Source of the DNA: Paenalcaligenes niemegkensis
GTDB taxonomy: Bacteria; Pseudomonadota; Gammaproteobacteria; Burkholderiales; Burkholderiaceae_B
Reading direction: 5' to 3'
Length of the DNA stretch: 64,000 nt
Assembly: GCF_022230885.1 (NCBI RefSeq)
Contig: NZ_JAKGCT010000004.1
Location: 806,001-870,000, forward strand
Shown: positions 9,069 through 42,044 of the stretch, one piece after another
Layout: every line of letters begins with the position of its first letter
Position numbering within the stretch: position 1 is the stretch's first letter
Position numbers and translations under genes: made by a program
The notes under the pieces: model-generated
The model's input: only the letters and a program-made list of their open reading frames with translations
Told to the model about the DNA's origin: nothing
The model's database searches: none

Positions 9069-9431
9069 ATGCGTACGTCAATAGTGATTGCAATGCTCGC
9101 GGCTTTTTCACTACCGAATTCCGTGCTGGCTGCCGATGCCAAAGCCCCTTCGCTGCACCCTGCCGCTCCCGGCGCTTGTGTCGATGTGGAAGTCGGTGGC
9201 TATCGTGCACTGTCTTACGACTGCCTAAGCCAGCAAATGGCGCCCGATAAACAGCAGCCCGTCCCCGGAAACCCCGCGCTGGCCTCTGAGGAAATCGCCC
9301 GTCAAGCCCCTAATCGGCTGGGACTATTCAATCAGGCCGCTACTTCTAACCGCATGGGTAACCAATTCGGAAAATCAGCCTTTCCCCAACGGCCGTCAGC
9401 GTTTCCTGGGCGTGCGCCTACCGCGCCGTAG
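9069..9431 (+). CDS. Small secreted protein of unknown function, Pho-box controlled
   Basis: A 120-residue protein from ATG 9069, chosen because AGGAGG lies 5 bases upstream and a signal peptide (MRTSIVIAMLAAFSLPNSVLA) starts exactly there. The mature part has two cysteines in GACVDVEVGG and LSYDCLSQQM, which could form a disulfide. A Pro/Ala/Arg-rich, low-complexity C-terminus contains GNQFGKSAFPQRPSAFPGRA. It is transcribed divergently from the TPS/TonB cluster and preceded by a Pho-type repeat. A bidirectional terminator follows at 9453. I do not recognise the family; co-regulation suggests it is part of the same phosphate-starvation secretion programme. Confidence 0.72.
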   Translation: MRTSIVIAMLAAFSLPNSVLAADAKAPSLHPAAPGACVDVEVGGYRALSYDCLSQQMAPDKQQPVPGNPALASEEIARQAPNRLGLFNQAATSNRMGNQFGKSAFPQRPSAFPGRAPTAP

Positions 9432-9452
9432 TAACAGGTAATAATCTGATAT

Positions 9453-9481
9453 AAAAAAAGGCGCCGTGCAGGCGCCTTTCA
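9453..9481. terminator. Bidirectional rho-independent terminator
   Basis: GGCGCC-gtgca-GGCGCC stem flanked by an A7 run on the left and a T-run on the right. In the minus direction it gives stem plus T7, serving the oxidoreductase gene ending at 9506; in the plus direction it can end the small secreted protein gene. Confidence 0.75.
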
Positions 9482-9505
9482 GGTTCAGAAAATATCTACC
9501 CTTGC

Positions 9506-10479
9506 TTAGATACTCAGTATCACCGCCCCCTTTCTTGATCTGGACTCTATTTCCCGATGCGCTTGCGCTGCTTCAGCAAGCGCAAAGGTAGCAATATGTC
9601 CGGGGCGTAAAACATCATCATTGAGCGCTTTGAATAACGTGGCTGCGGCATTACGCAGCTTTTCGGGGGTTTGCAGGTGCTGGAACACGTTAGGCCGCGA
9701 CAGCGAGTTTGATTTGGGAAACAGCATAGAGACTTCAAACGGCGGCACCGGGCCCGAGGCTTGTCCGTAATTGGCCAAATGCCCGCAGGGTGCCAGACTC
9801 GCCAGCGACCCTGAGAAGGTGTCCTTGCCAACCGCGTCATAAACCACCTGCACACCCGCACCGCCGGTAATCTCTTCCACTCGCGCAACAAAGTCTTCGT
9901 CTCTATACTGGATTACGTGACGGCATCCTGAACGCTGTGCCTCTTCTACTTTAGCTTCTGACCCCACAGTGCCAATAACGTGTGCGCCCAAATGACTGGC
10001 CCACTGACTGAGCAATGACCCCACGCCTCCGGCAGCAGCGTGCACAAGCACCCGGTCGCCGGGTTTGACGGAGTAGATCTCGTTCACCAGAACCTGTGCT
10101 GTAAGCCCTTTGAGCAAAATGGCAGCCACCATGTGGTCACCAAGGTCAGGGGTAAGGGAACAGCCGCTTTAGCAGGCAGGATACGTTCGTCGGAATAGGC
10201 GCCGTAGCCCAAATGGATATAAGCCACACGATCGCCCACCTTCAAATCGCGCACCTCGCTTCCGAGTTCGGTAACGACGCCTACGCCTTCTATTCCAGGT
10301 ATTCCCGGCAGCGCAAGTGTCTGATACAGACCGGAGCGAACGTAGGTATCGTGAAAATTGACACCAACCGCAGTATGTCTGAGCCGAATTTCGGCTGGAC
10401 CCGGCTCTTGAACCGTGACAGACTCGAATTTGAGATTTTCCGGAGGGCCAGGCTGATGCAGAACAATGGCTGAAGGCAT
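9506..10479 (-). CDS. qor: Quinone oxidoreductase, zinc-independent MDR family (frame broken)
   Basis: Adding one base to the CC pair at 10140-10141 joins two frames into a 324-residue protein, the normal length of NADPH:quinone reductases. The N-terminal GroES-like part (1-120) includes GVNFHDTYVRSGLY and the LPGIPGIEGVGVV signature. The Rossmann part has VLVHAAAGGVGSLLSQWA (NADPH-binding GxGxxG variant) and VVYDAVGKDTF. The zinc-ligand cysteines of alcohol dehydrogenases are absent, as expected for quinone reductases. It would reduce quinones or enones using NADPH in the cytoplasm. Monocistronic, with a terminator downstream. The break restores PLPLTLGDHMVAAILLKGL, exactly the family sequence, so a sequence error is likely. 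Confidence 0.88.
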
Positions 10480-27664: not shown

Positions 27665-27942
27665 ATGAAAGGCTCCTTTATCCGTCTAAGGCACTGGTGC
27701 CAAAAAGCCAACGAAGTGGGGGTGACGTATTACAACGCCCCCTTTCGTTCCGCCATTGCCAGAGCGAAACGCGAGGAAGATGATCTTTTCATGCTCTTGG
27801 TGTTTTCCGAAATGATGGGTGTGCCTAATCCTGCCTCTTGGTATACCCTCGAGCTGCAACCACTGCTGCTGGAACGTTTCCACGACTGGCATACACGCAT
27901 GGGTATGGAGCGATCCCCCTGGATCACTTTCGGTGCTGCTGA
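27665..27942 (+). CDS. Cory-CC-star protein (frame broken near the end)
   Basis: Starts 3 bp after cstA. With one C added to the C5 run at 27915-27919 it encodes 92 residues ending DHFRCC-stop, exactly the two-cysteine terminus that names the cory-CC-star family; as written the frame overruns. The visible core is YYNAPFRSAIARAKREEDDL, LMLLVFSEMMGVPNPASWYT and HDWHTRMGMERSPLDHFRCC. Its restored TGA overlaps the ATG of the ATPase gene (TGATG). The family is small and cytosolic, role unknown; the terminal cysteines suggest metal or thiol chemistry linked to the ArsA-type ATPase. Confidence 0.82.
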
Positions 27943-28957
27943 TGCCCTTGAATATTTCTGCGCTGATTCAACACCGGCGGCTACTTCTGGTTGGTGGCAA
28001 GGGTGGGGTCGGGAAAACGACAGTTTCTGCTGCCCTAGCAGTACATGCCGCCGAACGGGGCCGCAACGTCCTACTGGCTTCCACCGATCCAGCTCATAGC
28101 CTGAGCGACGCTTTTGGCCGCACGATCGGATCGAAACCTACCGTGCTGGCAGCCGGGCTAACTGCCTTGGAAATGGATCCCGACACTGAGGTAGACGCCT
28201 ATCTGGATCGCGTTCTCGCGCAAATGCGCCGCTATGCCGGCCCGGACCAGATTAACGAGCTTCAACGCCATCTGGGTTTGTCACGCCAATCGCCCGGCGC
28301 ACAAGAAGCCGCCCTTCTAGAGCGCCTGTCGCGACTTATGGAAGAAAGCCAGACCGACTACGATTTACTTATTCTGGACACTGCACCTACCGGCCATACT
28401 TTGCGTTTGCTGAGTTTGCCCGAAGTGATGGCCGCATGGACTGAAGGTTTACTACGGCACAACAAACGCTCACAACATCTAGGTTCAGTGCTATCTCACC
28501 TGACTCCCGGGCGAAGCATCGATAATCCTATTTCTGATCCCAAAGAGAACCCCCTTGAAGAACTGGACACCAAAGGCAAGGCGCTCGCCGAAACACTGCT
28601 ACAACGGCAGCGCCTGTTTCATCGCACCCGACGATTGCTATCCGATAGCGAGCGTACTGCCTTTTATTTGTCCTGACCCCAGAGCGTCTGCCCATGCTTG
28701 AAACCGAACGGGCTATCCATTCTTTACGGGAAAGCAAGGTCCCAGTGGCCGGAGCTATTATCAATCGTATCCTGCCCAATGATACAGAGAGTCCGTTCTG
28801 GGCCGCACGACACGAGCGGCAACAGCGTCAACTAGCAGAAATCCAGCAGCGGTTGGGTACCCTGCCAATGCAGCTAGTGAGTTTGCAAAAAGACGACATA
28901 CAAGGGCTCGACGCGCTGTCTGCCTTCGGCAGACAACTTATACAGCCTTGGCCATAA
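27942..28957 (+). CDS. ArsA/GET3-family ATPase (frame broken)
   Basis: From ATG 27942; a single T missing from the TTT at 28667-28669 introduces a premature TGA. Repaired, it encodes 338 residues. It has the deviant Walker A VGGKGGVGKTTVSAALA, switch I STDPAHSLSDAFG, and switch II LLILDTAPTGHTLRLLSLPE, all hallmarks of ArsA/Get3. Late AGAIINRILPND is the adenine-binding segment. It is a single-domain member that would dimerise. Arsenite export is unlikely as no arsB/arsR is present; linkage to CstA and cory-CC-star suggests a transporter-assembly or regulatory role. Confidence 0.88.
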
Positions 28958-29049: not shown

Positions 29050-29126
<77 letters not shown>

Positions 29127-29475: not shown

Positions 29476-29769
29476 ATGTCATACACAATCACCCTTCAAG
29501 ACGCCCCTTCCGATATCTCCGAACGTGCCAAAAAAGACGCTGAGTATCGTTTTCAACGAACATTGCAGCGCTCCTTAGGCGAGCCAGACGAAGTTGTGGC
29601 CTCGTACATGGCCTGGCAGAATGCAGAAGAAACAGCAGAGTCCGAGCTCTCTCCGGAAGAAATCACGCTGGCTAAACGCTGGATCGCCGCAGCTACCAAG
29701 GCACAACAAGATGGCTTCAGAGAGCTTGGCGAGTCAGAGGCTTATTTTGAAATTCGGGTTGAGAGATAA
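29476..29769 (+). CDS. Hypothetical protein, helical and acidic
   Basis: 97 residues from ATG 29476. No signal peptide or membrane segment; long charged helices are predicted (ISERAKKDAEYRFQRTLQRS, then SPEEITLAKRWIAAATKAQQ). No recognised domain. It lies about 200 bp before the helicase-PLD gene in the same direction but with an intervening leader, so a shared transcript is possible though not shown. Confidence 0.6.
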   Translation: MSYTITLQDAPSDISERAKKDAEYRFQRTLQRSLGEPDEVVASYMAWQNAEETAESELSPEEITLAKRWIAAATKAQQDGFRELGESEAYFEIRVER

Positions 29770-29974
29770 AGATTTGTTGGGCTAGCACAGTGGCTGCCGC
29801 AGCGTAAGCACACCCAGTGACTCTAAAGCCGATCGGCACGTAACTGATCATCAAACCGACTTCCTCTTGTCTTGGGCTGCCCCTGGCTGCTCGTCAGACT
29901 TCGATGGTGTTAGTATCGTTAGCTTGATTCATTGGCAAGCTCTCGGGATAGCTCAGTTTTGCTCAGAAACGCCC

Positions 29975-32900
29975 ATGTTGCCGCTTACCGTTGTTAAAGA
30001 TTTAGCAAGCATGCCTCAACTCTCCACATCCCTTTCCTGTCGCCGTTTTGCCTCTTATTACCGCGTCTCTTGCCTTGACGGCCAAACCTATCAAAGTCAG
30101 CCAATTAAGGATTCAATTGCGGTATCGCTGGATGGTATTAAAAATGGATACATCCCTGACGAAGCAAAGCTTAAGTGCGACAGATTGCGCCACCAGGCTA
30201 AGCAAAAAGGTTTAATAGAGAGTGAAAACGACGCAATAAGCGTCGTTATACAGTGTGCAACGTACGTTAAAAGCAAAGACAGAGGGTTTCTGACGAGCAG
30301 CAACTATCCGAATGAAATCTGCGCGATCGTAACAACAGCGATGCTCACACCCGATGGACAAATCATTCCATCGTCCACTCATCCAATGGTGCCGCGCGAA
30401 CTACTTGGGCCGTCTGAGAATCTGAGCTTAGCTCTCGTGAATGAGTTTGACGGGTATCTGGCTAAAAATGAGTCGCAGTTTGAAGAGGCTCCGGCATGGT
30501 CGAAATTTATCGACAGGATCGGTTCGATGCAATCGGCCATGTTTGGTAGCCGACCTCTGGCTGAAGGGTATGAGTCAGTCGACAATATCTATATTTCACT
30601 GCAGCTAAAGCTCAGTGGAATGATTGATACCGTCGTACGAGCCTATGATCGGCTGGAACGCCTGGACAAAGCAAAAAAGACGCCATTATTCGATATGCTC
30701 GTTGGGGCTTGTAAAGCCCGACACGCCTTGCCTCCATCACAGCTGGCAACGATCTCATTGCGAACTGGACAAATGAAGGCTGAGTTCTCTCTTGCCTCCG
30801 CTCAGCGCGATACGCTTGGTGCAGCGCTTAACTTGCAAGATGGTGAAATACTCGCCTTGAACGGCCCTCCCGGCACTGGTAAAACCACATTACTGCAAAG
30901 CGTGGTGGCAAGCCTTTTTACACGTGCTGCCTTGTTGGATCTGCCTGCGCCGCTGATCGTGGGTGCTTCAGCCAATAATCAGGCTGTCACGAACATTATA
31001 GAAAGTTTTAGTGCCGAAGCTGAGACCCCGACTAGCGAGGATCTACTCGCCCAAGAAGGGTTTATGACTCGATGGCTGCCTCGCGCAGGCGAAGGTCTGG
31101 GCTTTGGTTTGTATATGGCGTCAAAATCCAAAGCCGCGAACACGCCGTATCTTACGCCAGATAAGTTCGACAGCATCTTGCACGGCCCCGGTGCTGCCGA
31201 CACAGAGCGCCATTATGTGCAGTCAGCTCAACGTGCGCTAAACGGTCTGGGCAAAGGCGCTACGCTGCAGTCAACAATAGAACACCTGAAGAAGGAACTG
31301 CAGCTCACGGCGGATCAGCTCAACCTCGTGCAGCAACTCGCTACTGAGCTGATCAATATCGACCCCAAGTGCCTGGACAGTATAGAGGGGATGGACGAGT
31401 TGCTTGCTCAAGAGCAGCAATTAAAAAGCGAGCGCCACAGCCTGGAGCAAATGCTTCATGAATGGATGGGAGTTATCGCAGATGAAGGATGGGTGCAGAC
31501 CCTGTTAGCCTCCTTTGGCCCTTTTAAGCGAAAGCGCCAGGCACAGCTGCATCACTTCCTCTCACGTCACCAAGCCACACTTCAGGTTGACCAGGCTGAG
31601 TGGAGCACGCTAAGTGCACAAATAGAACACGTATTGGCGGGGGTAACTGCGCGGTATCAGGAAGGCCGACAAAAAGTAGCCACGTATCAGCGCTGGGTCA
31701 ATGAGACCAGACTCTACTGTAAAGACGCCACCCCCTTATCAATCAGACAGATTGATGAGCGCCTGGATGTGAGCTTGCGCGCTTATGCATTTTGGTTAGC
31801 CGTGCATATCTTTGAGGGCCGCTGGATCCAGGAGATGAAAGAAACATTTTGGAGTGGCAAATCAGGCCCCTGGGAACGAAGCGGCCAGGGAGTGCTCACA
31901 CGCCTAAGACTTAAGGCGATGTTAACGCCATGCCTGGTCAGTACCTTTCACAGCCTTCCCCAAAGCTTCAAATATATACAAGGCAAGGATAAGGAAGGTA
32001 ACTGGATCGAGTCCTCATTTTTTAACGAAATTGATCTCCTGATCGTCGATGAAGCAGGACAGATCTCACCTGAAATCGCAGCAGGCAGCTTCGCACTGGC
32101 CAAAAAGGCGTTGATTGTCGGCGATACCCTGCAGATTGAACCGGTTTGGTCGGTACCGGATCTTGTTGATAAGTCCAACTGGGTACGGTTTATTGGCGGA
32201 CCTGAGCCCGATGCCTCTGCCTTTGAAGCATTTAAGGAAAGGGGTGCCGCATCAAGCAACGGCAGCCTGATGCGCATGGCTCAAGAGGCAACGGCGTTTT
32301 CATTAGATCAGGGGCTGCCTGCAGGGATGTATCTATTCGAGCATCGTCGCTGCGTTGAGCCGATTATCGAATACTGCAATGATCTCTGCTATCAAGGCAT
32401 GCTAAGCCCTCAACGCGCGGAAAGCTCCGTTAACCGCAAAGAATTGGGTTTGCCGGCAATGGGCTGGGCCTATGTGCAGGGTGCAAGCCAGACTAACGGA
32501 TCAAGCCGGTCCAATCCAGAAGAAGCGAAAGTGATTGCCGTCTGGGTGGCAGAGAACCTCGCGCGCCTTAAATGTTTTTACGGTAAGCCGATAGAAGAGA
32601 TTCTTGCTGTGGTGACACCCTTCAAGGCGCAAATGAGTGAAGTAAGAGCAGCCTTTCGCGCTCTGAACTTACCAGAAAAAATCACCATCGGGACTGTCCA
32701 CGCCCTGCAAGGGGCGGAGCGCGATATAGTGCTCTTTAGCACCGTCTACACCTTACGTGACGGTCGGAACTATTTCTTTGATCAGAGCCCCAATATGCTC
32801 AATGTGGCGGTGTCCCGCGCCAAAGACAGTTTCTTGGTGTTCGGTGATACACAGATTCTGGATGAGCGAACCAGCAAACCCAGTGGCGTGCTGGCGAAGC

Positions 32901-33463
32901 ATTTGTTTTCGAACCAAGGCAATGAGATCATTATTGATCCGAGCTGGTCAGCACGACAAGAGTTTCAAAGCAAGGCCGGAGACTACACTGTGATTCGTAC
33001 GCTCGAAGGCCACCGCCAAGCTCTAAAAAAGGCCCTAGGCGATGCGCAGGAAGATATCATTATTGTCTCCCCCTGGATTACCCACAACGCGCTGGAACAA
33101 GACGGCATCCTTAATTTGCTGGAAGCAGCGTCCAAACGAAATGTGCGTTGTACGATTTTTTACGACAAAGCCCTTAATGAAAAAACCGAACAACGTCAGG
33201 CACTGGCGCAGAGCCAGTCTGAACAGCTTGTTAAACAGCTGAAACAGGCTGGTGCCCATGTTCATGCACTGCATAACCTGCATGCCAAAGAGATCTTCGT
33301 GGACGACTGCTACCTGCTCATGGGATCTTTTAACTGGCTTAGCTCGCCACGCGGGGGCCCATGGGTACGCCACGAGGTGTCTACCCGCTATCAGGGCCCA
33401 TTAGTCGGTAGCGAGAAAAAGGCAGAGCTCGACGCGCTGATGTCTCTGAAGATCAAGCAATAA
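29975..33463 (+). CDS. mkoC: SF1 (Upf1-like) helicase fused to a PLD nuclease, Mokosh type II-like
   Basis: 1162 residues from ATG 29975 (an in-frame TTG at 29867 and ATG at 30011 are alternatives; none has a strong ribosome site). Numbering from 29975: Walker A GPPGTGKT at 297-304, a long helical insertion (about 400-620), Walker B variant VDEAGQ at 691-696, then VGDTLQIEPVW, motif V GTVHALQGAERDIVLFSTVY and motif VI NVAVSRAK. Together these make a COG1112/Upf1-type helicase. The C-terminal ~170 residues form a phospholipase D fold with one complete HKD motif (H1103, K1105, D1110, GSFN 1117-1120), so a dimer would make the active site. Helicase plus PLD in one chain is the architecture described for anti-phage Mokosh type II. 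Function inferred, not shown. Confidence 0.8.
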   Translation: MLPLTVVKDLASMPQLSTSLSCRRFASYYRVSCLDGQTYQSQPIKDSIAVSLDGIKNGYIPDEAKLKCDRLRHQAKQKGLIESENDAISVVIQCATYVKSKDRGFLTSSNYPNEICAIVTTAMLTPDGQIIPSSTHPMVPRELLGPSENLSLALVNEFDGYLAKNESQFEEAPAWSKFIDRIGSMQSAMFGSRPLAEGYESVDNIYISLQLKLSGMIDTVVRAYDRLERLDKAKKTPLFDMLVGACKARHALPPSQLATISLRTGQMKAEFSLASAQRDTLGAALNLQDGEILALNGPPGTGKTTLLQSVVASLFTRAALLDLPAPLIVGASANNQAVTNIIESFSAEAETPTSEDLLAQEGFMTRWLPRAGEGLGFGLYMASKSKAANTPYLTPDKFDSILHGPGAADTERHYVQSAQRALNGLGKGATLQSTIEHLKKELQLTADQLNLVQQLATELINIDPKCLDSIEGMDELLAQEQQLKSERHSLEQMLHEWMGVIADEGWVQTLLASFGPFKRKRQAQLHHFLSRHQATLQVDQAEWSTLSAQIEHVLAGVTARYQEGRQKVATYQRWVNETRLYCKDATPLSIRQIDERLDVSLRAYAFWLAVHIFEGRWIQEMKETFWSGKSGPWERSGQGVLTRLRLKAMLTPCLVSTFHSLPQSFKYIQGKDKEGNWIESSFFNEIDLLIVDEAGQISPEIAAGSFALAKKALIVGDTLQIEPVWSVPDLVDKSNWVRFIGGPEPDASAFEAFKERGAASSNGSLMRMAQEATAFSLDQGLPAGMYLFEHRRCVEPIIEYCNDLCYQGMLSPQRAESSVNRKELGLPAMGWAYVQGASQTNGSSRSNPEEAKVIAVWVAENLARLKCFYGKPIEEILAVVTPFKAQMSEVRAAFRALNLPEKITIGTVHALQGAERDIVLFSTVYTLRDGRNYFFDQSPNMLNVAVSRAKDSFLVFGDTQILDERTSKPSGVLAKHLFSNQGNEIIIDPSWSARQEFQSKAGDYTVIRTLEGHRQALKKALGDAQEDIIIVSPWITHNALEQDGILNLLEAASKRNVRCTIFYDKALNEKTEQRQALAQSQSEQLVKQLKQAGAHVHALHNLHAKEIFVDDCYLLMGSFNWLSSPRGGPWVRHEVSTRYQGPLVGSEKKAELDALMSLKIKQ

Positions 33464-33497
33464 CAAGCCTGGCAACATCTATATCACCTGGATAAAT

Positions 33498-34303
33498 ATG
33501 GAAATCATCATTATTTTAACTGTAGTGAGCGTCATTGCTGCTTACCTCATTTTTTCAAAGAAAAAAGCCGTGCGGCCCTCGTTAAAAAAAATGAGCCAAG
33601 AACAAAAAGAAAAAACCTGGCTACGGAAAATGCCGAAAAAATCGATAAGGCCATGCGCCAGGAAGCGATGAATGTGCGCAAATCTGCGCTAGCTAGCCTT
33701 AGTTCAAAAGAAGTCCAGTGTCTGGAACAAGCGCGAGCACTTCTTTACACGCTATCACCCGCTGAAGATGCGCTCGGCAGGCGTACCCGGGAAAAACACA
33801 TTACGGATTTGTTTTTTCAAACCAGGGCCATAGTCGAAGTACGCTATGGCGATGAGGTCTGCCGCACAAACTATGGTGATGAGCTAAGCGCTGACGCTAA
33901 GTTTCTGAAATCCAGACTAGCAGACGGATTAAGCATTGAGGACATACGTAGCTATTGGAATCAGCCGCTGCTTATGGCGCTACTTATTCCCGAGATTCAT
34001 CTACTGGCCAAGACACTGTATAAAGAATCGCTAAGCAAAGATCAAAAAATCGGCACCATCGACGCCGAACGCATGTTCAGAAAGTCGAATGTGTTTTACG
34101 GAAACCCTGTCCAGGATGTTAAGCAGACGCTTAAGATCAGGGGTTACGCCGAGAATGACGCTGCTCTTTTTATAGAGTTTTATACACGTATAAACCAGTG
34201 GCAGCTTACGCTGGATCCACTCTCGAAGCCTAAGGTTTTTAGTCACTCCGAGGCTTCCCTAAACGCGGTCATAAGGAATTTAATTGCCGCTGGCCAGATA
34301 TGA
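33498..34303 (+). CDS. Membrane-anchored protein next to the helicase-PLD gene (frame broken)
   Basis: Begins 34 bp after the helicase-PLD stop with ATG 33498. One A missing from the A6 run at 33610-33615 breaks the frame; repaired it encodes 268 residues. A single N-terminal membrane helix (EIIIILTVVSVIAAYLIFSK) is followed by a Lys/Glu-rich stalk and a soluble helical domain (about 70-268) containing DEVCRTNYGDELSADAKFLK and LMALLIPEIHLLAKTLYKES. No known domain recognised. The close spacing suggests co-transcription with the helicase-PLD gene, which would make it a candidate second component or a membrane anchor. Confidence 0.6.
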
Positions 34304-35154: not shown

Positions 35155-36074
35155 CTACTGCAATGCTGCTTGCCATTGACGTAGCAGATCAACGCTGGCG
35201 GTGACGCCGCCGCAGACAATCACCATTACGTTATCAAAACCCTGCAGCGCGCTAACCTGCGCATAGGCCAGGGCAAGACTGGCGCCACAAGCAGGCTCTA
35301 CCAGTATTCGGTGATCATCTAGAAAGCGTTCGCATGCCTGCACCGCTGCCTGGTCGCTAACTACCTCCGGGTACACAACATGCTGCCGCGCCAAGTCGAA
35401 TGCCTGCTCGCAGACTTGCTGTGCGCCCAACGACGTGGCGATGCTGGTAATGGCATCCAGCGCAATGCGTTCACCTGCTGCAATGGAGCGTGCCAGTGCG
35501 TCAGCGCCGGCCGTTTCCGCCGTGATAACAGGGATGCCGTGCCAACCGTTGCGCCGCAAGCCTTCAACCACACCACAGAACAGGCCTCCCCGCCCACCGA
35601 AAGCACCACTGCGTCAGGCTTGATACCCGATGCTGCCACCTCATCGATCAATGTTGCATGACCTTGCCAAAGCAGCGGATCATCGAAGGGATGCAGAAAA
35701 GCATCGGCCTCACCTAGCATGGACTGCGCCAGCGTATTGGCTTCATGCCAAGCAGCGCCATGCACGATCAGCTCAGCACCTTGCTGACGGATCAGTGAGC
35801 GGGCACGTTCAGTGGTGGTTTCCGGCACCACCACCACGACGGGAATGGAAAGGCGGCGACCCGCAAAGGCCACGGCGATCCCGGCATTACCGCCAGAAGA
35901 GGAGATAAAGCGCCGCTTGCCATTTTGTACGTAAGTCTCGCAAGCGGCCCCGATGCCCCGTATTTTGAACGAGCCTGAAGGTTGCAGCGCGTCGAGTTTA
36001 AGCCAGATGTGGCGGCCAGCCGCTTCGCTCAAGGTGTCAGACTCGATCAGCGGAGTTTCGATATGCAAGGACAT
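35155..36074 (-). CDS. Serine/threonine dehydratase-like PLP enzyme (frame broken)
   Basis: One base missing from the C4 run at 35588-35591 splits the gene; repaired it encodes 306 residues. Fold type II PLP enzyme: the Schiff-base lysine is in SGSFKIRGIGA, the substrate-binding loop is SSSGGNAGIAVA, and the restored glycine-rich phosphate cradle reads SVGGGGLFCGVVEGL. The C-terminal CGGVTASVDLL completes it. Length and motifs fit catabolic serine dehydratases, which convert L-serine or L-threonine to pyruvate or 2-oxobutanoate and ammonia. No ACT domain, so no isoleucine feedback is expected. Confidence 0.87.
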
Positions 36075-39971: not shown

Positions 39972-41172
39972 ATGACCACTTCATTTTTTGCTTCACGCCG
40001 ACGTCTGCTGGCCGCCACAGCGGCCTTACCGCTTGTCATGAATGCGCCGCTTGTTCTGGCAAATGGCCGTCCGCTGAAGATCGCCTTGCTTACGTCCCTG
40101 TCAGGTCCATTCACGTCGCTGGGCGAAAGCATGCGCGCGGGTCTACAGCTGTTTCTTGAGCAAAACAATTATGAAATGGGTGGCCGAAAGGTTGAACTTC
40201 TGATCGAGGACGATCATGGCAAACCCGACGAAGCCCTGCGTAAAGTACATAAACTGATTTCCAGGGATCGTATCGATGTCTTGTGCGGAGTCATCAGCGC
40301 CAACATTGCGTTGGCCATACGTGATGTGGTCGCCGACGCCCAACTGCTCACGTTTATCTCCAATGCCGCGGCCAACGATTTAGCACGTGATGCCGCCAGC
40401 CCGTATATTTTCAGACCCACCAAGACCAGTTGGATGCTGGGCCATACCGGTGCATTGTGGACCTACGAAAATATTGACACTTCGGGGGCTCACATTAGCG
40501 TCCGACTATGCTGCCGGCCGCGAATATATTGAAGATTTTAAGCATACCTTTGAAGAGCAAGGCGGCAGTTTAGGTCAATCGATCTGGACGCCCCTGGGTA
40601 CAAGCGATTTTGCACCCATCATCATGAATATGGCAGCTGCACAGCCACGCTTCATCTACAGCTTTCTTGCCGGGGCAGATGCCGTCCGTTTTCTTCAGCA
40701 GATGAAAGACTACAAGATGCACGGCAGAGTTCCGGTCGTAGGGCCTGGGGCTCTCTTTGACCAGGAAGATGTCATTCCAGCTACCGGTGATGCCAGTCTG
40801 GGAGGCATCAGCACTTTCCATCAGTCGCCCGGCGCGCCGGCTGCCGCTGATTTTGTTCGCGCTTACCAGGCTTCACGTGGCCGTCTTCCTGGTGAGGCCA
40901 GCACAGCAGGCTACGCCACTGGCCAGGTCATCAAGGCAGGTGTTGATGCAGTAGAGGGCGACGTCAGCAACAAGGATGCCTTCAAAGACTACTTATTGGG
41001 CAATCGTGTCAACACCGCCTTTGGCCCCATGCACTTTGATCCGCGCAACAATCAGGCTATTCTTGATATTTATGTCAACGAAGTTCGCCAAGATGCCGAG
41101 GGCAAGCCGTTCAATACCGTCATTCACACATACGAGCACATTCAGGATCCCGGCCCCAAAGCGCAAGCCTAA
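39972..41172 (+). CDS. Branched-chain-amino-acid-type ABC substrate-binding protein (frame broken)
   Basis: One extra G in the G5 run at 40484-40488 splits it; repaired it encodes 399 residues. A Tat-like leader SRRRLLAATAALPLVMNAPL is followed by LKIALLTSLSGPFTSLGESM, the Peripla_BP_6 signature, then VELLIEDDHGKPDEALRKVH and the rejoined YENIDTSGLTLASDYAAGRE. HAAT-family proteins bind amino acids, urea, amides or aromatic acids. First of a five-gene importer operon (binding protein, two permeases, two ATPases). The Fur-like box upstream would make it iron-responsive. Confidence 0.87.
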
Positions 41173-41175
41173 CCC

Positions 41176-42044
41176 ATGTCTTACTATTTGCTGCAAGCGC
41201 TGAATGCGTTGTCGTTTTCGGTATTGCTCCTGCTTACCGGTCTTGGCCTTACTCTGGTCCTGAGCCTGATGAATTTCATCAATCTGGCTCACGGCTCATT
41301 TTTCCTGCTCGGCGGCTACATCGCCACCCAATGGCTTGCCTCCGGCGCTCCATGGTGGTTGGCCTTTCCCGCCGCCTTCATTCTTACCGGCGCAGTCGGG
41401 CTGCTGCTTGACCGTTTCCCTTTTGGACAGTTTTATGGGCGCACGCACTTAATGCAAGTGCTGCTTACCTACGGCATCGCCATTATTTTTGCCGACCTAA
41501 TGCGCTGGGGGTTCAGTGCCGATACTTTAAGCCCCAATCTTCCCGAGATATTGCGCGGTGGCGTCTGGATTGCCGGTCTGCCTTTCCCTGTATACCGGCT
41601 TTTTATTATTGCGGCAGGCGTCGTCATCGCGCTGATCCTGTGGGCACTGCTCGACTACACACCATGGGGTGCGGCCCTGCGCGCCTGCGTCAGCGATCGC
41701 GCCATCGCAGAGTCATTAGGCCTGAACGCCAGACGTATCTTTACTATCGGCATGGTGGTTGCAGCAGGTCTTAGCGGATTGGGGGAGCCTTGGGCGCCGG
41801 AGTGTTATCTGTGCACCCGGGGCTGGACGAAAACGTCTTGCTGCTTGCGCTGCTGGTGGTCGTCATCGGCGGCCTTGGCAGTGTAAAAAGTGTGGTGCTC
41901 AGCGCCCTTATCCTGGGCTTTGTCGAAACCTTCTCCAGAGTGTGGTTTCCCTCATTTTCCAGTGCGGTCACTTTAGGTGTCATGCTGCTGATTCTCGTCG
42001 TACGGCCTAATGGCTTATTGCAGGCAAGGACGCGCTTCGCATGA
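41176..42044 (+). CDS. LivH-type branched-chain ABC permease (frame broken)
   Basis: Starts 3 bp after the binding-protein gene. One G missing from the G5 run at 41781-41785; repaired it encodes 289 residues. It has 8 or so membrane helices, SLMNFINLAHGSFFLLGGYI near the start (the typical NLAHG motif), RACVSDRAIAESLGLNARRI as the cytoplasmic EAA-like loop, and VIGGLGSVKSVVLSALILGF after the break. The restored stop overlaps the next ATG. Confidence 0.88.

Follow-up and report, generated by a model that had tools for sequence, protein, structure and literature searches.

Does Mokosh type II, whose MkoC protein is said to stand alone in those parts of the literature available to us, work at this locus with a partner in the membrane? 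The question is raised by a stretch of 64,000 nucleotides from Paenalcaligenes niemegkensis (assembly GCF_022230885.1, contig NZ_JAKGCT010000004.1, positions 806,001 to 870,000 of the forward strand; hereafter the window, whose own numbering is used for all coordinates), in which a gene for a helicase-nuclease fusion is followed closely by a second gene that appears to encode one membrane helix and a soluble domain. A membrane partner, if true, would reveal the cellular site of Mokosh action and offer another way into a defence that is poorly understood; should the second gene be irrelevant, the locus simply adds a rather divergent case to Mokosh type II. Every sequence feature examined assigns the large gene to Mokosh type II, as mkoC. 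A place of the second gene in that system is possible, not demonstrated.

The mkoC frame (29975..33463, forward strand) runs unbroken over 1162 codons from the ATG at 29975 to the stop at 33463, the length that a sequence-only reading of this DNA had given. The protein database has a start at 30011 instead (P0003), which leaves 1150 residues, and in an alignment the start of the relative P0004 falls about one residue from that position. Scanned from the TTG at 29867, the frame matches the PADLOC MkoC profile from position 7 to 1127 of 1136 (E value 4.1e-295, 980 bits), with the next families far below (MkoA 125 bits, MkoB 71 bits). Three Pfam domains score above their cut-offs, AAA_11 and AAA_12 followed by PLDc_2, which places a helicase in the N-terminal part and a PLD nuclease in the C-terminal part of the product of one gene. 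The Walker A motif GPPGTGKT (30863..30886, residues 297-304) and motif II, DEAG (32048..32059, residues 692-695), both on the forward strand, are intact, and both the former and the extended form DEAGQ of the latter are invariant in 12 of 12 alignment rows. Equally intact is the PLD catalytic site HAK-x4-D-x6-GSFN, starting with H1103 (33281..33334, forward strand, residues 1103-1120); its residues are present in 11 of the 12 rows, the exception being P0005, where the PLD part is missing. None of 20,000 shuffles of the MkoC protein reproduced the HKD spacing H-x-K-x4-D-x6-G-S-x-N. The AlphaFold2 model has a mean predicted local distance difference test score (pLDDT) of 88.4, and structure comparison of the predicted fold points to a superfamily 1 (SF1) helicase of the Upf1/SMUBP2/Senataxin type followed by a NucT-like PLD nuclease. 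The assignment to Mokosh type II is made because the profile match is full-length, the domains stand in the right order and the motifs are intact. The sequence-only reading is thus upheld in its account of a complete Upf1-type SF1 helicase, of perfect HxK-x4-D-x6-GSxN spacing and of an MkoC architecture.

What such a protein would do can be proposed with some confidence. We think it probable that MkoC is a Mokosh type II phage defence that cuts phage RNA, and that the second protein is a lineage-specific accessory and not core. The Upf1-like motor would grip and unwind phage RNA, and the C-terminal PLD nuclease, working as a dimer, would then cut it. RNA as the substrate is suggested by the literature on the family and by the resemblance to Upf1, SMUBP2 and Senataxin, whereas the expectation of a dimer comes from the single HKD half-site per chain. 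Two observations weigh against this proposal. Sen1 and Dna2 are also structural matches, and Dna2, a DNA enzyme, fits the fold about as well as Upf1, SMUBP2 and Senataxin do, which bears on the RNA step. Moreover, no other defence system was recognised in the window when 52 further open reading frames (ORFs) were scanned with PADLOC at E 1e-10. The matches obtained there, mad3 in four ORFs, mad8 in one and AriA in one, are likely generic ABC-type ATPases; the sequence-only reading had named a lack of association with other defence genes as a point that would count against it, and within the window that objection stands in part, these being the only matches.

The same two observations, the fold common to Upf1, Sen1, SMUBP2 and Dna2 and the missing defence neighbours, would also suit a housekeeping RNA or DNA helicase with no role in defence. 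We regard this as very unlikely, given that the MkoC match is specific, that the protein carries a C-terminal PLD nuclease, that it has plasmid-borne relatives and that mkoC is absent at E 1e-60 from all ten other genomes of the genus, which were checked for genus-wide presence. The other danger seen for the assignment, hits to a housekeeping helicase profile, did not materialise among the NCBIfam models listed (25 of 56 matching): none reaches its own cut-off, and the IGHMBP2 family model scores 70 bits where 348.9 are required. The distribution of mkoC is patchy, a pattern expected of an accessory and not of a housekeeping gene. Matches at E 1e-60 occur in 12 of 200 genomes of the family, its own included; at 1e-150 the gene is found in 1 of 399 genomes of the order (its own) and in 8 of 398 of the phylum, again with its own. 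Relatives are also plasmid-borne (37 plasmid records at E 1e-90) and present on viral contigs (20 loci); P0004 used as the query found no relative on the viral contigs.

Within the family, the window protein sits on a deep branch, scoring 980 bits against the MkoC model versus 1272-1538 for seven full-length matches elsewhere. Its closest relative among the matches listed is P0004, 57% identical, and in a tree of 27 rows chosen among 120 listed MkoC relatives it groups with P0004, P0005, P0006 and P0007 (SH-like approximate likelihood ratio test, SH-aLRT, 99-100). Helicase-only forms of MkoC seem to exist: P0005 has 995 residues and no PLDc_2, and two of the 15 other mkoC loci surveyed below, L006 and L019, lack the PLD part, ending at MkoC profile positions 981 and 963. 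At L018/L043 (G902), a full mkoC is preceded, at a distance of about 320 bp, by a 109-residue frame that resembles the C-terminal PLD end of the protein, as if a tandem copy had left a remnant.

The second gene starts with an ATG at 33498, exactly 34 bp past the mkoC stop and on the same strand, in agreement with the spacing first noted. From this ATG, the forward strand encodes 57 codons up to a stop (33498..33671), comprising a single predicted membrane helix, whose highest hydropathy over 19 residues is 2.59, and a lysine-rich linker. A predicted cytoplasmic domain of 216 residues follows in a different frame of the same strand (33653..34303); that frame is open from 33464 to 34303 with its first ATG at 33653, and the domain is 51-52% identical to a database protein, P0002, with which it shares long identical stretches. 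As assembled, then, the gene is broken, with helix and soluble part in different frames. The earlier description of one helix plus a soluble domain holds in that both parts are encoded, and fails in that no single open frame joins them here; the only intact version is P0002 (270 residues, 51% identical), where helix, linker and soluble domain share one frame.

The frame changes within an A-rich stretch (33498..33668, no strand assigned) for which the stops of both frames and the homopolymers were listed. Such a stretch could be the site of a programmed frameshift that gives rise to a fused protein alongside a short membrane peptide, but we hold this to be extremely improbable, since P0002 is encoded in a single uninterrupted frame and several ordinary metabolic genes close by are also interrupted. 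These lie at 27819-28957 (ArsA ATPase), 35155-36074 (PALP enzyme), 39972-41172 (Peripla_BP_6) and 41176-42044 (BPD_transp_2). Four of five split genes tested nearby show one Pfam family cut over two frames (Peripla_BP_6, BPD_transp_2, PALP and ArsA_ATPase), and in the fifth (MFS) the first piece alone was matched. The split neighbours point to many small assembly errors in the genome, and because four in five are single families divided in this way, the break in the second gene is likely an assembly error as well.

Relatives of the second protein were sought widely. In two database searches covering 5.8 billion proteins, which score just those candidates that share short exact words with the query, P0002 was the sole relative besides the window's own protein. 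Neither a plasmid search with P0002 as the query nor a scan of viral contigs for the second gene found a relative; 369 genomes of the class held only the window's own gene, and 268 genomes of the family held that gene and two weak matches, at L023 (E 3e-4) and L024 (E 5e-3), the latter spanning the helix and the linker. The L023 match was rejected as due to chance, since it lies inside a 666-residue frame resembling a PpiD/SurA-type foldase. No Pfam or NCBIfam family was found for the second gene, no PADLOC model matches its soluble piece (the window piece was scanned and P0002 left out), nothing in PHROG is better than E 0.16 and no relative among solved structures is better than E 0.38. An AlphaFold2 model built from two sequences has a mean pLDDT of 43 and was left out of the fold searches.

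The sequence-only reading had suggested a survey of whether the membrane protein is conserved beside other helicase-PLD genes, and here its suggestion of a variant system was neither borne out nor refuted. None of 15 other mkoC loci has a relative of the second gene downstream, 13 of them having at least 1.4 kb of downstream sequence and two (L046 and L048) about 0.3 kb. The survey took in 3 of the 20 viral-contig loci and 3 of the 37 plasmid records; the broken or partial L020 and L021 fell outside the 15-locus reading, and L041 and L015 are the same locus. A tblastn search of the second gene against the loci collected, the partial ones included, returned, besides its own loci, just L023 (E 4e-4), L059 (0.10) and L051 (0.47). 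These results show that Mokosh type II does not generally include the second gene. On its relevance in the window's own branch the survey is silent; because the surveyed MkoC proteins are just 31-36% identical to that of the window, these loci probably lie outside its sub-branch. At L066, on the Agrobacterium plasmid pAt, a 107-residue protein with a signal-like hydrophobic start overlaps mkoC by 4 bp (9291-9614), so that here too mkoC is closely coupled to a small neighbour; no similarity between this protein and the window's second gene could be detected.

The survey bears on two opposed explanations of the second gene. It could be an unrelated or decaying orphan that stands behind mkoC by chance, to which we give slightly less than an even chance. 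The gene is frame-broken here, it has a single relative among the 5.8 billion proteins (within the exact-word restriction of those searches), and the gene behind mkoC varies among the 15 loci, save for L042 and L044, which belong to one genus. However, an open frame of 216 codons covers the soluble part, whose long identical stretches with P0002 suggest selection on a protein, while other genes of the window are split in like manner. Conversely, the second protein could be an obligate partner that tethers or gates MkoC at the inner membrane, with the frame break only an assembly error; this we consider rather unlikely. The shared strand and the 34-bp gap are consistent with such a two-gene variant, as are the split neighbours, four of five being one Pfam family cut over two frames. 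So is the similar divergence of the nearest relatives (P0004 57%, P0002 51%), whose clusters each have 3 members on 2 contigs and the same source, 'lgn'. Of the 120 MkoC rows listed, two (P0004 and P0088) have such numbers, and the equality hints at co-occurrence, no proof of it. On the other side, the longest contigs of P0002 and P0004 (2425 and 4037 bases) are too short for both genes, and a relative is missing at all 15 other loci, although those probably represent another sub-branch. As far as its texts were available, the literature searched names no membrane partner of Mokosh type II, and 'MkoC' as a search term gave unrelated word matches only among the best 20 of 676.

In the reading that we prefer, MkoC probably provides the defence, and the second gene is predicted to give a single-pass protein of the inner membrane, probably an accessory confined to this lineage and no core component. 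We infer that the two genes are co-transcribed, and the soluble part of the second protein would be cytoplasmic because lysines follow the helix. If both proteins cooperate, the most natural task of the second would be to hold MkoC at the inner membrane, the entry point of phage genomes. A fuller form of this idea, which we judge unlikely, is a two-gene membrane-anchored Mokosh in this deep MkoC branch: a dedicated protein crossing the membrane once, from a family with two members so far, would keep MkoC at the inner membrane, so that incoming phage transcripts would be cut on entry. With equal doubt, by analogy, such an arrangement might be a bacterial counterpart of the animal piRNA pathway, with its membrane-bound PLD nuclease and Upf1-type helicase.

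The surroundings of the two genes are as follows. The left neighbour is a tRNA-Met (cat) gene called by ARAGORN on the reverse strand (29050..29126), and between it and mkoC lies a 97-residue ORF (29476..29769, forward strand) that occurs in 6 of 11 genomes of the genus, its own included. The five congener stretches around this ORF have other neighbours and no mkoC, and it is probably outside the system; at L036 it adjoins a lipocalin gene, a relative of which is about 4.5 kb off in the window. A downstream 255-residue ORF was found in none of the ten other genus genomes. Left of the tRNA, a CstA-YbdD-ArsA block is kept in 6 of 6 congener stretches; an ArsA match is present in seven congeners, and the one whose contig end is short was omitted. 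None of the window genes to the right of this block, tRNA-Met included, stands behind it in the six stretches, and for that reason no empty site is definable. Flanking repeats are short and chance-like only.

Among known systems, Mokosh type II is the nearest. The available parts of the descriptions place the helicase first and the PLD domain last (PMC11672841, PMC10013915), and the window protein is likewise a single chain with an SF1 COG1112-type helicase, then a PLD nuclease, and an end-to-end MkoC profile match. It differs from the members found elsewhere in its deep branching, seen in the bit scores, and the locus differs from the accessible descriptions in having a same-strand gene 34 bp downstream, which they do not mention. 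In Mokosh type I, as far as the source could be consulted, helicase and PLD domains reside on separate proteins and a kinase domain is added (PMC11672841). The window's domains are related to these, as the MkoA and MkoB scores show, but here they form one chain, and no PADLOC model matches the soluble part of the second gene. Sources that cover Mokosh disagree, in the portions seen, on whether its mechanism is known (PMC10952713, PMC11291487, PMC12278908, PMC11672841, PMC10013915, PMC12135933). NucT (a chain of 159 residues) and DrmC of DISARM (models of 153-269 positions) are short and without a helicase, unlike the window MkoC. Upf1, SMUBP2, Senataxin and Dna2 are just 17-20% identical to it, and we know of none among them with a PLD nuclease. 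On these sequence comparisons, the window locus belongs to the known family Mokosh type II, as one of its divergent members.
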